The translations under genes were made by a program, and so were the position numbers. Positions 1,608-16,810 of a stretch of 64,000 nucleotides of DNA are shown piece after piece (the first letter of the stretch is position 1; each line of letters begins with the position of its first letter). Origin of the DNA: Ramlibacter sp. (GTDB lineage Bacteria > Pseudomonadota > Gammaproteobacteria > Burkholderiales > Burkholderiaceae_C); NCBI GenBank assembly GCA_021323335.1, contig JAJTCN010000004.1:1-64000 (forward strand), in the 5' to 3' direction. The notes under the pieces are model-generated. The model made no database searches and was not told the origin of the DNA. It was given only the letters and a program-made list of their open reading frames with translations.

Positions 1608-1682
1608 CGTCATTCCCGCGCAGGCGGGAATCCAGGGCTCCCTTCCTGAAAGCCCTGGATCCCCGCCTCCGCGGGGATGACG
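1608..1682. repeat. Paired palindromic intergenic repeat (BIME/REP-like), two facing copies
   Basis: Left arm CGTCATTCCCGCG-CAGGCGGGAATCCAGGGCT and right arm AGCCCTGGATCCCCGCC-TCCGCGGGGATGACG face each other across an 11-base spacer. Each arm is also an imperfect hairpin. Single copies of the same unit lie at 15246, 15816 and 16779. This dispersed unit is common in proteobacterial intergenic regions; here it may also act as a terminator after the Anbu gene. The ATG at 1677 lies inside the repeat and is not a gene start. Confidence 0.85.
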
Positions 1683-11996: not shown

Positions 11997-12869
11997 CTAG
12001 GCCTTGCGCGTTCCACGGCACTTCGGGAAACCGGAACAGCCCCAGAAGTCGGAGCCGGCCGAGGCGCCCTGACGTGCGGTTCTACGCACCATCGCTCCGT
12101 CGCAGATCGGACACTGCGGCGTCGCCAGCTTCGGCTCTGCTCTTGCAGTTGCGACCGGGGGACGGGATACCGCATGGGAAGCGTCCTTACCGGCAGCCAG
12201 CGACACCTTGGCCCGCTGGATCAATCCCAGCAGGTGGCTCCCCTCCACCAGCTTCACGTTGAGGCCACTCGCGAACTCCTTTGCATCGGCAGTGAACGAT
12301 CCGGAAGTCACCACGAAACCGCCGGCCGCCCCACGGACGGCCATCACGCCGTAGAGATCGCGGACCACGTCCACGGAAACCTTGAACGCCTTCCATTGCT
12401 TGCACTGGACGAGAAAGGTTTCCGTCCCCTTGCGCAATACAAGGTCGACGCCGCCATCCGGCCCGGCGCCCCCCGACTCACTCACTGTGTAGCCCTGCAT
12501 GCGAAAGGCCTCGCCGACCAGCATCTCGAACTCCTGCCAGCTCATCCCGTTCAGGGCATCAGCGGCAGGGGAGTGAGTCACCGCCTTGACGAGATCCGTT
12601 CGCTTGCGGCGGTTGATCCACGAGATCAATGCCGCAACAGCGCAGAGCGCGGGAAAGGCGTACTGCAGGACGAGCCCCAGTGCAGGGATCATGATGCTGA
12701 AGACAGGAATGCTGACCTTCCCTTGCACGACCCCAGTGACGGGCCGGATCGCCGCCAACTGATAGAACACCAGCCAGCCGGCGAACCCGAGTGCCAGTGC
12801 GCCCCACCACGGCAACTTCGCCACCAGTTGCACCACTGCATCGGCGGCGCTTGTCTTCCTGCGACCCAT
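11997..12869 (-). CDS. Membrane-anchored Mrr-type restriction endonuclease-fold protein with C4 zinc finger
   Basis: 290 aa. N-terminal MGRRKTSAADAVVQLV, two membrane segments (ALALGFAGWLVFYQLAA and FSIMIPALGLVLQYAFPALCAVAALIS), a PD-(D/E)XK nuclease domain at ~110-225 (WQEFEMLVGEAF, GGVDLVL, FLVQCKQW, the last being the QxK variant typical of Mrr_cat), and a C-terminal CPICDGAMVRR...FWGCSGFPKC topoisomerase-type zinc finger. Mrr-fold proteins cleave (often modified) DNA; membrane-bound versions are widespread and their role is unknown. No methyltransferase adjoins. Base composition looks slightly below the window average. A 14-codon relic with the same N-terminus lies 2.3 kb away at 15155. 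Confidence 0.85.
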   Translation of the reverse strand: MGRRKTSAADAVVQLVAKLPWWGALALGFAGWLVFYQLAAIRPVTGVVQGKVSIPVFSIMIPALGLVLQYAFPALCAVAALISWINRRKRTDLVKAVTHSPAADALNGMSWQEFEMLVGEAFRMQGYTVSESGGAGPDGGVDLVLRKGTETFLVQCKQWKAFKVSVDVVRDLYGVMAVRGAAGGFVVTSGSFTADAKEFASGLNVKLVEGSHLLGLIQRAKVSLAAGKDASHAVSRPPVATARAEPKLATPQCPICDGAMVRRTARQGASAGSDFWGCSGFPKCRGTRKA

Positions 12870-13651: not shown

Positions 13652-14530
13652 ATGGCGTCGCGCGTCATCTACAGCCACGAGTACATGGAGGAGGTCGAGA
13701 ACGGCACCCTCGTGCCGGAGAACTTCGATTACTTCTTCCTCTGCGAGGGCGACTCGTGGATGGACCGCAGTTCCCCGGTGCACATGTCGCTGCCCTTCGC
13801 GCTGGCCAGGATCTTCAAGGGCGGCGCGCGCGGGGACGACGCCTTGTTCATCAACCTCTCGCGCTTCGGTCACACGCTGCGGCACATCGCGGACTGCCTG
13901 AACGACGACCTGCACCAGTGGCTGAACACCCAGGACATGGGCTTCACCTTCGACGCCCTCCTCTTCAGCGCCGCGGGCAATGACTTCATCGATGCGGCGC
14001 TCGACCCGCCGCCCGGCCAGGGCATCCTGAAGGATGTGCGCACCGCTCCGGCGCCGACGTCCGAGAACGATTGCATCGATGTCCAGGCGGTAGCGACGCT
14101 GGTGATCGACTTCCTGGATCCCAACTTCGACAAGCTCTATCGCGCGGTGCGCGACAGCCGCCAGCGCGCGGACCTGCCGATCTTCCTGAACGGCTACAAC
14201 CAACCCGTCGCGCGCAATGCCCCCGCCTTCCCGGGCTCGGGACCCTGGCTGTCCAGGGCCTACATCCAGAACGGCATTCCGACGTCACTCTGGGAGGACG
14301 TGACCCGCCGCATCTTCATCGACGTGGAGGCCGCGGTCACGGGTTGGACCAAGGTGGACGGCCGCGACAACCTGTTCGTCGTGCCCACCAGCGCCGTGGA
14401 CCTGGAACCGGCCGATCCGCAGAGCACCGGCAGCAGCGGCGACTGGCAGAACGAGATCCACCCCAACACCGGCGGGTGGAACAAGCTGGCGAAGGTGTGG
14501 CTGCAGGAGATCCGGAAGGTCGTGCCGTAG
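13652..14530 (+). CDS. SGNH/GDSL-like hydrolase
   Basis: 292 aa; start ATG 13652 follows a strong AAGGAGG. Block I FLCEGDSWMD supplies the candidate Ser nucleophile, GNDF (SAAGNDFIDAAL) corresponds to block III Asn, and NEIHPNTGGW supplies the catalytic His near the C-terminus, the order expected of SGNH hydrolases. No signal peptide, so the enzyme appears cytoplasmic, which is less usual for esterases of this fold. Substrate unknown. Monocistronic; the convergent HEPN-like gene ends 10 bases downstream. Confidence 0.75.
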   Translation: MASRVIYSHEYMEEVENGTLVPENFDYFFLCEGDSWMDRSSPVHMSLPFALARIFKGGARGDDALFINLSRFGHTLRHIADCLNDDLHQWLNTQDMGFTFDALLFSAAGNDFIDAALDPPPGQGILKDVRTAPAPTSENDCIDVQAVATLVIDFLDPNFDKLYRAVRDSRQRADLPIFLNGYNQPVARNAPAFPGSGPWLSRAYIQNGIPTSLWEDVTRRIFIDVEAAVTGWTKVDGRDNLFVVPTSAVDLEPADPQSTGSSGDWQNEIHPNTGGWNKLAKVWLQEIRKVVP

Positions 14531-14540
14531 CGAGACGGCG

Positions 14541-15158
14541 CTATGGGGGTCCGGACTCCGACCCATCATCCGTACGGAAAGCCTCCGAGAGCGCACGTTT
14601 GAAGTCGGCGCCGCGTAGCAGCGCGGCGACCTCCAAGCGGATTCTCTGGAAGGCTTCGCTCTCCACCCGCAAGAGCTGGAGCTCGCCCAGGCTTTCCTGA
14701 TGCTCGTCCTCAAGACGTTGCAGCAATGAACGACTGCTTTCGATGGAGTCTCTTGACCACACGTCATGAATCCCATGAACCAGTTTGTTCCGGCGCTTGA
14801 CGATAATGCTCAGCCTTTTCTTCCTGGCAGCGGCGTCAGCCGGCTCGCGGTCGAAGGAGAAACTGAACGAGAAGTGCGGCTCCCGACCTTCCGGAATGTC
14901 GTCCATATCCTTGATGGCCGGCTTCGTCAAAATCTTGTCGGCGAAATGACCCGCGAGACTTCCCAAACCCGCGTTCTTCAAGCGCTTCGCCCGCTTCTTC
15001 TGCAGTGTCGCGAGTTGCGACGCTGGCCCCGAGAGCTCGGAGGGAATGACCATGCTTCGAAGCATGCTCTCCATCTCCTGCAACACCATGAGGTTGCGTC
15101 CAATGGCGTGGAAGATTGCGGCGGTTAACTGCGCCAGTTCGTTGCCTTCAGCAGTCAT
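14541..15158 (-). CDS. HEPN-like protein, GC-poor gene, possible RNase toxin
   Basis: 205 aa, all-helical, not matched to a named family by eye. The motif RRNKLVHG at ~130 is a canonical HEPN signature (R-polar-x3-H, Rx4H), flanked by long helices; HEPN proteins are mostly RNases in toxin-antitoxin, abortive infection and CRISPR systems. Start chosen at ATG 15158, which overlaps (ATGA) the stop of a 14-codon upstream frame that begins like an Mrr-type nuclease. Counted by eye, GC in the middle of the gene is about 50%, against about 70% around it, a sign of transfer. A short FSFSFSF stretch lies mid-protein. The gene is real; the HEPN call is moderately supported. Confidence 0.65.
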   Translation of the reverse strand: MTAEGNELAQLTAAIFHAIGRNLMVLQEMESMLRSMVIPSELSGPASQLATLQKKRAKRLKNAGLGSLAGHFADKILTKPAIKDMDDIPEGREPHFSFSFSFDREPADAAARKKRLSIIVKRRNKLVHGIHDVWSRDSIESSRSLLQRLEDEHQESLGELQLLRVESEAFQRIRLEVAALLRGADFKRALSEAFRTDDGSESGPP

Positions 15159-15199
15159 TTCACGAGGTCCTCGGCGGGACTTGTCCTTCTTCGACCCAT
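15155..15199 (-). pseudogene. 14-codon relic/leader identical in style to the Mrr-type nuclease N-terminus
   Basis: MGRRRTSPAEDLVK followed by TGA. The first codons closely match MGRRKTSAADAVVQ of the nuclease at 12869 in protein and in DNA, and a GGAGG-type ribosome-binding site precedes its ATG. Its TGA overlaps the ATG of the HEPN-like gene. It is either the stub of a decayed nuclease gene or a leader now used for translational coupling. Confidence 0.6.
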
Positions 15200-15245
15200 T
15201 GCTCTTCCTCCGCCTTGATGGTGAGGGCAGTGAAGAGAAAGTGGA

Positions 15246-15278
15246 AGCCCTGGATTCCCGCCTTCGCGGGAATGACGG
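15246..15278. repeat. Palindromic intergenic repeat, single copy
   Basis: AGCCCTGGATTCCCGCCTTCGCGGGAATGACGG, same unit as at 1608, 15816 and 16779. It lies in the 282-base gap between the HEPN-like gene region and the eRF1-like gene. Confidence 0.85.
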
Positions 15279-15440
15279 AGGCTGGTGGATTCTTCGTGGG
15301 GTGCGCCCCACAGTGCGCATCGGGGTGAGACGTCCGCGGGCATGACGAAGACAGCGGCTCCCGGGTGCTTGACGCACGTCAAGCACCCGGGCCCCGCGGG
15401 GCCCCAAGATAGACCGGTCACAACCCGCACAGAAGACTTC

Positions 15441-15815
15441 ATGAGCACCTATCACGCCGTCGCCTGGATGGACCACACCGAAGCGCACGTCCTCCAGTTC
15501 GATCGCGAACACGTCGAAGCGCAGAAGGTGCGAGCCCGCAGCCACCACAAGCACCAGGGCCGCGACACCCACGACGCCAACTACTTCCCCGCGATCTACG
15601 GCGCACTGCAAGGCAACCAGGAGGTCCTGCTGGCCGGTCCCGGCCTGGCCCGCGAGGAGTTCGCCACCTGGGTGAAGAAGCAGCATCCCGATGCGGCCGT
15701 GCGCTTCGTTGATTCCGTGCCGTCCGACCACCCCACGGACGCGCAACTGGTCGCCCTGGCGCGCAAGTACTTCCTGAAGTTCGACCAGATGGCTGGCGAT
15801 CCGGCGCAGAAGTAA
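15441..15815 (+). CDS. Small eRF1-domain-like protein ('translational machinery protein')
   Basis: 124 aa; MSTYHAVAWMDHTEAHVLQFDREH is the start of a family that databases label 'translational machinery protein', resembling domain 1-2 of archaeal/eukaryotic release factor and Pelota (bacterial aRF1-like, baeRF). Pattern seen: alternating beta/alpha with ALQGNQEVLLAGPGLAREEF, FVDSVPSDHPTDAQLVALARKYF. A HHKHQGRDTHD stretch is His-rich. Role unknown; some relatives may act at stalled ribosomes. Single gene, with the palindromic repeat starting immediately after its stop codon. Confidence 0.7.
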   Translation: MSTYHAVAWMDHTEAHVLQFDREHVEAQKVRARSHHKHQGRDTHDANYFPAIYGALQGNQEVLLAGPGLAREEFATWVKKQHPDAAVRFVDSVPSDHPTDAQLVALARKYFLKFDQMAGDPAQK

Positions 15816-15848
15816 AGCCCCGGATTCCCGCCGTCGCGGGAATGACGG
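15816..15848. repeat. Palindromic intergenic repeat, single copy
   Basis: AGCCCCGGATTCCCGCCGTCGCGGGAATGACGG, directly abutting the preceding stop codon. Same family as 1608, 15246 and 16779. Confidence 0.85.
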
Positions 15849-15908
15849 ATACAGAACCGCCGAGCTCAGGCAAGATGCACCCTTGTCGTCGTCCCCACGG
15901 AGCACAAG

Positions 15909-16217
15909 ATGGTCTTGCTGGAATTCGCGATGGCGCCCACGGGCGAAGGTGAGAGCCTCAGCCGCCAGGTGGCCCGCATCCTGGACATCGTCGACCGCAG
16001 CGGCGTGAGCTACCAGCTCACCGCGATGGGCACCATCCTCGAAGGCGACTGGGACGAGGTGATGGGCGTGGTCAGCGAATGCTTCCGCGCGCTGCAGTTG
16101 GACTGCAAGCGCATCAGCCTGAACCTGAAGATGGACTACCGCGCCGGCACCGAGCCGCGCCTGCGCAGCAAGGTCGACGCGGTCGAAGGGCACGTGGGCA
16201 GGAAGCTGAGGACTTGA
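15909..16217 (+). CDS. MTH1187-family thiamine-binding protein
   Basis: 102 aa; matches the small YkoF/MTH1187 fold (PF01910), a ferredoxin-like tetramer that binds thiamine or related pyrimidines. Family features visible: LLEFAMAPTGEGESLSRQVARI, GVSYQLTAMGTILEG, the KRISLNLKMDYRAG strand and a terminal RLRSKV helix. Cytoplasmic. Likely a thiamine-salvage or buffering protein; no thiamine genes lie next to it. The downstream gene starts six bases after its stop, so the two are probably co-transcribed. Confidence 0.85.
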   Translation: MVLLEFAMAPTGEGESLSRQVARILDIVDRSGVSYQLTAMGTILEGDWDEVMGVVSECFRALQLDCKRISLNLKMDYRAGTEPRLRSKVDAVEGHVGRKLRT

Positions 16218-16778: not shown

Positions 16779-16810
16779 AGCCCTGGGTCCCCGCCTTCGC
16801 GGGGATGACG
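16779..16810. repeat. Palindromic intergenic repeat, single copy
   Basis: AGCCCTGGGTCCCCGCCTTCGCGGGGATGACG, same unit as 1608, 15246 and 15816; packed between the terminator and the aminotransferase stop codon. Confidence 0.85.

Follow-up and report, generated by a model that had tools for sequence, protein, structure and literature searches.

According to the catalogue PMC3710099, HEPN domains are recognised by an Rx4-6H motif, a polar residue (N, D or H) after the arginine and an acidic Ex3[KR] motif, and the HEPN RNases are proposed to act by 2'-OH attack. That source also describes the restriction-associated RNases PrrC and RloC, which carry the Rx4H signature, and terms DUF3644 a HEPN domain; by term search, OST-HTH is named there in the reference list only. 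The OST-HTH (LOTUS) domain was analysed in PMC2848206, where nearly every bacterial form is paired with DUF88 and no conserved gene neighbourhoods are given. In the open-licence papers searched, we found nothing further on HEPN combined with LOTUS or with restriction.

The gene considered here, P0001, is located in the window, that is, the 64,000 nucleotides of Ramlibacter sp. contig JAJTCN010000004.1 that were analysed. Among its closest counterparts are the proteobacterial HEPN/OST-HTH proteins (for example, WP_230971724 of Nitrogeniibacter aestuarii and L110 of Ramlibacter paludis). Their HEPN-like half aligns with P0001 over 150–200 residues and shares with it the invariant RNxLxH motif and the ExxxK/R position, but P0001 has no LOTUS domain, the identity is just 20–31%, and GRN stands for GRC in the first helix. 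With PrrC and RloC, P0001 shares the Rx4H signature, and its relatives occur within hsd operons like prrC. Unlike them, P0001 has no NTPase domain, no adjoining hsd genes, and no significant fold or Pfam match. The best sub-threshold family matches, HEPN_RiboL-PSP (PF18735), DUF3644 (PF12358) and HepT-like (PF01934), are aligned at the same motif, although the P0001 family stays below the gathering score and no MNT antitoxin gene adjoins P0001. The combinations of OST-HTH with the LK-nuclease/DUF88 domain (PMC2848206) resemble the relatives described below in that an RNA-binding OST-HTH is joined to a predicted RNase; however, the nuclease half of the latter is HEPN-like, not DUF88. Finally, P0002-like Mrr nucleases (PF04471), featuring an N-terminal membrane segment and a zinc ribbon, have a counterpart in the short leader ORF preceding P0001, which keeps the start M(A/G)RR(K/R)xxSxAED(L/V), whereas the rest of the nuclease is gone.

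Structure of the locus and the leader ORF

The locus comprises the following features.

14541..15158, minus strand: HEPN-like gene P0001, 205 aa, by sequence a LOTUS-less member of the HEPN/OST-HTH family and a predicted metal-independent RNase
15155..15199, minus strand: leader ORF MGRRRTSPAEDLVK, 14 codons, very probably a relic of an Mrr-type nuclease gene start
15207..15211, minus strand: GGAGG, the leader's ribosome-binding site, 7 bases 5' of its ATG
15169..15172, minus strand: GAGG within the leader (A-E-D codons), 10 bases 5' of the HEPN ATG
15252..15274, minus strand: REP-like palindrome immediately 5' of the leader
11997..12869, minus strand: intact Mrr-type nuclease P0002 with Mrr_cat and a Top1-type zinc ribbon, N-terminus MGRRKTSAADAVVQLVAKLPWW
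13652..14530, plus strand: SGNH-like gene, named from its N-terminal motif, without a Pfam match; delimits the variable slot on the left

Both ORFs, the GGAGG site, the ATGA formed by the overlap of the leader stop and the HEPN start, the RRNKLVHG motif and an Mrr gene about 2.3 kb away are present as the first-pass annotation had it; the P0002 gene, with the start MGRRKTSAADAVVQ, begins 2,330 bp from the HEPN locus. The GAGG within the leader is a possible ribosome-binding site for the HEPN gene, built from relic sequence. The neighbours of P0001 are the leader, the SGNH-like gene, which is convergent with the HEPN ORF and has its stop 10 bases from the end of the latter, a 124-aa gene without a Pfam match, and a thiamine-binding-protein gene. 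No partner gene adjoins P0001, and an MNT nucleotidyltransferase gene is absent among these neighbours.

The HEPN-like ORF is GC-poor, as suggested earlier, at 58.6% (about 55% in its lowest 200 bp) rather than the estimated value of about 50%, against 69.5% for the 64-kb window. Its GC3 of 0.728 is the third lowest among 56 window ORFs (median 0.918), and that of the P0002 gene is also low, 0.777. The ORF lies in a variable slot (window 13652–16217) extending from the SGNH-like gene to the thiamine-binding-protein gene. In the same slot of another genome of the genus (G047), a patatin gene replaces the HEPN gene, the leader and the 124-aa gene. A second genome, G017, was considered as an exact empty site and proved unusable, since the gene order there is rearranged. 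REP-like palindromes (CATTCCCGCGAAGGCGGGAATCC) were seen at window positions 1611–1679, 15252–15274, 15822–15844 and 16785–16807; the count in the window is five, versus none expected, and near-identical copies occur in G017 and G047, both of the same genus.

Within the genus, Mrr genes begin with the common sequence M(A/G)RR(K/R)xxSxAED(L/V)..LVA.LPWW, and the leader matches it over its 14 codons. A profile of the Mrr N-terminus, constructed from 12 starts, was run on 39,118 six-frame stretches (the window and the loci collected for comparison, about 1.2 Mb). Genuine Mrr genes scored at E = 1e-7 or better; the leader was the top match other than Mrr genes, with E = 0.0016, and the next one had E = 0.51, which bears out the reported match of the leader to the Mrr N-terminus. 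When the Mrr start was written as a degenerate DNA pattern, it occurred in four of 60 genomes of the genus: two of the places were true Mrr genes, one was the leader, and one was a frame unrelated to Mrr. In about 200 genomes of the family it occurred at 12 other places, all of them unrelated frames with no Mrr start. By these sequence comparisons, the leader very probably descends from the start of an Mrr-family gene and is a true relic of it.

Two more specific readings gained no support. The 42 bases of leader DNA are identical to the Mrr start of the window at 31 positions and to that of G003, from the same genus, at 30; since these are nearly equal, the donor cannot be named, and capture from the Mrr gene 2.3 kb away is not favoured over capture from other Mrr genes. 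A sequencing frameshift in a full-length nuclease gene was considered and is rejected as unlikely. The leader contains no Mrr catalytic domain, and beyond its codon 14 nothing significant of Mrr is seen nearby in any frame, which argues for a relic consisting of the start only. A weak Mrr-like segment on the opposite strand, 0.1–0.5 kb beyond the leader, was returned by one of six queries (E 0.006) and is taken as chance.

HEPN assignment of P0001

All three HEPN hallmarks are found in P0001: the Rx4H motif (R123-N124-K-L-V-H128, within RRNKLVHG), the polar N124 following the arginine, and E30-x3-R34 upstream. Alignments of 16 and 64 sequences show no variation at R123, N124, L126 and H128 and very little at E30 and K/R34; R-N-x-L-x-H is found in 79 of 80 loci. 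On P0001 every Pfam model falls short of its cut-off, the best being HEPN_RiboL-PSP with 12.1 bits against 28.4, and no HEPN family for it was matched in NCBIfam or PADLOC. Among 64 members the two commonest Pfam matches, all sub-threshold, are DUF3644 (in 42) and HEPN_RiboL-PSP (in 23), while HepT-like is fourth (in 5), and these three models align on the same residues of the P0001 family. Further, 12 HEPN-type family sequences outscore 240 control ORFs against the family profile (p = 1e-6), most of them in the same register.

A HEPN core is expected to have four helices, with the motif closing the third. The AlphaFold model of P0001 (pLDDT 91, pTM 0.85) is all-helical save for short strands. 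The RNKLVH motif lies within the last third of helix 106–133, which is followed by a 44-residue helix, and E30 is situated in the first long helix; in PMC3710099 the acidic residue is assigned to helix 2. Foldseek with this model yields nothing significant in the PDB or among the BFVD viral models, and a sequence search of solved structures with the HEPN half produced chance matches only. As the hallmarks, the weak Pfam matches and the profile test agree, and Foldseek gives no significant match, the HEPN membership of P0001 has good support from sequence, and the fold leaves it undecided. The initial HEPN reading thus stands on the side of sequence, with the three motifs and more than 60 relatives behind it, and is not confirmed by the fold comparison.

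HEPN/LOTUS relatives and their neighbourhoods

Whole-genome searches turned up distant relatives of P0001 in 19 genomes (24–32% identity, best E 6e-16), and 161 related places were found in GTDB genomes. No close orthologue was found among 85,462 GTDB species genomes, nor in phage records or viral contigs, and in the loci examined no relative, stand-alone or fused, carries the leader.

Most relatives are about 285 aa long and have a C-terminal OST-HTH/LOTUS domain. The PF12872 (OST-HTH) model matches seven of the eight relatives scanned, six of them at or above the cut-off; P0001 ends before this domain. In the model of L110 (pLDDT 93.5), the LOTUS half matches the bacterial LOTUS structures 2kpm and 2kzv and human TDRD7, and the HEPN half gives no significant Foldseek match. 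None of the PADLOC and NCBIfam models covers the three fused members tested. The LOTUS-less minority consists of P0001, L189, L022 and L005; L189 adjoins two phage-type integrase genes, and L022, on a Planktothrix plasmid, adjoins one integrase gene.

Several gene arrangements recur among the 80 loci. In about 15 of them the order is hsdM-hsdS-HEPN/LOTUS-hsdR, followed by a gene of a YgjP-like peptidase. Loci with the HEPN-like/LOTUS gene between hsdS and hsdR and the peptidase gene after them fall in the range L078–L102 (for instance, L079:4635-6831, L097 and L102), and this gene is a candidate restriction-linked RNase. In about ten loci (L099, L114, L116, L117, L121, L123–L125, L136, L139), the HEPN-like/LOTUS gene and the gene of an M78 (ImmA/IrrE-like) peptidase overlap, again by 4 bases each time. 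Six of these loci encode an XRE-type regulator further upstream, eight have a recombinase or DUF2924 gene on the downstream side, and the arrangement resembles a regulated module carried by an integrative element. In six of the 80 loci the gene lies in an element with topoisomerase III.

Some individual loci differ from these types. In Pseudoxanthomonas spadix (L145:5648-6888) the HEPN-like/LOTUS gene has a 4-base overlap with a ParE-type toxin gene. In L096:5932-8187 it is followed by an apparently decayed hsdR start and then by an intact Mrr gene; this looks like a second case of a HEPN-like gene with Mrr neighbours, in a disturbed restriction locus. A family-profile match downstream of an intact Mrr gene in G044 (L050) was set aside: it has a C-terminal LOTUS domain and no HEPN, its first half being NYN-like.

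Origin and possible function

We consider it fairly probable that P0001 is a horizontally acquired HEPN-type RNase of defence or mobile-element origin that reuses the initiation region of an Mrr gene now lost. Most likely, the gene would have come in on a segment derived from a defence locus or an element, either together with an Mrr gene or in its place, and all that was left of mrr would be the ribosome-binding site and the first 13 or 14 codons. As the ATGA overlap joins the HEPN start to the Mrr fossil, the Mrr initiation region may now serve the HEPN gene, the two ORFs being presumably coupled in translation. No sigma-70-type promoter was recognised, which we count against this explanation, together with the Pfam scores below cut-off, the lack of a significant Foldseek match, the position of E30 and the absence of an adjoining partner. 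The leader may simply preserve a common arrangement, since the upstream partner of the relatives (hsdS, M78 peptidase) is usually very close to the HEPN gene or overlaps it.

The product is most likely a metal-independent RNase with the active site formed by R123, N124 and H128 (Rx4H) together with E30, probably in a dimer. The predicted mechanism of RNA cleavage is 2'-OH attack, with H128 and R123 at the active site. Members of the family usually add a C-terminal RNA-binding OST-HTH/LOTUS domain and adjoin type I restriction genes; P0001 would be a stand-alone form, probably an RNA-cutting effector backing up restriction systems or policing mobile elements. Since its distant relatives often reside in restriction systems or mobile elements, P0001 itself is probably a small component of anti-phage or mobile-element machinery, now orphaned. 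The "defence or toxin unit" of the first-pass annotation is an extrapolation from these relatives to a gene that has no adjoining partner, and to a leader that no relative has.

Another origin of the same arrangement, possible if not very likely, is a former mrr-HEPN operon with an ATGA overlap, in which one in-frame deletion fused the first 13 mrr codons to the last codon or codons and the stop. The original coupling would then have been kept, because the deletion spared both the start and the stop of mrr. The similarity to Mrr indeed reaches the last leader codons before the stop, and the HEPN genes of the family are normally directly behind a partner, be it hsdS (within 10 bases), the M78 peptidase or the ParE-like toxin gene (both at –4); L096, with a full Mrr gene next to the HEPN/LOTUS gene in the scar of hsdR, fits as well. 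However, no genome searched has an intact mrr directly 5' of such a HEPN gene, and most intact Mrr genes in the genus have the ending ...GTR and TGA, with no HEPN gene after them. The evidence does not tell this deletion from a capture of the Mrr start. Somewhat less likely is that the leader is a functional regulatory uORF whose coupling allows a toxic RNase to be made only upon translation of the leader. The good ribosome-binding site and the ATGA overlap agree with that, and the second GAGG would be masked or unmasked by translation of the leader; but since no relative carries such a leader, there is no sign of selection keeping it. We regard as equally unlikely that the Mrr stub and the HEPN ORF are decaying cargo, functionless remnants of a mobile or defence island. 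P0001 lacks both the LOTUS domain and a partner, no close relative retains the gene, and a REP element lies directly 5' of the leader. Yet the HEPN ORF is intact and its catalytic signature complete, and the missing LOTUS domain is not simply a matter of decay, as LOTUS-less forms recur in other bacteria (L189, L022, L005).

The two remaining alternatives question the assignments themselves. That P0001 belongs to some other helical family, with RNxLVH playing a structural role and no RNase activity, would agree with the lack of a significant fold match and with the sub-threshold Pfam scores throughout. We find it doubtful in view of three separate HEPN hallmarks and of the DUF3644, RiboL-PSP and HepT models converging on the same residues. 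As the leader has just 14 codons, its likeness to Mrr could also be a coincidence, or the trace of a frameshift in a full-length nuclease gene. This is very improbable given the gap between the leader and the next-best profile match (E = 0.0016 and 0.51), the lack of significant further Mrr similarity near the leader, and the ORF behind the leader having homologues of its own, unrelated to Mrr.

Returning to the preferred explanation, reuse of a lost Mrr start by an acquired HEPN gene, a broader and rather speculative proposal can be formulated. P0001 may have branched off from a family of HEPN/LOTUS RNases that has yet to be described and that would form a second line built into type I restriction systems and integrative elements. 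The locus would then record how a DNA-cutting (Mrr) gene gave way to an RNA-cutting one, with the Mrr start region kept as the coupled initiation site of the newcomer.

The P0001 locus is real and mildly unusual, and the HEPN/LOTUS group within type I restriction operons is the most interesting by-product of its analysis. If the proposed history is true, it provides a concrete route of defence-gene turnover, in which the newcomer retains just the translation start of the gene it replaced. The widespread predicted RNases composed of HEPN-like and LOTUS halves and encoded between hsdS and hsdR would be candidates, open to testing, for an RNA-cutting activity linked to restriction and comparable with that of PrrC.
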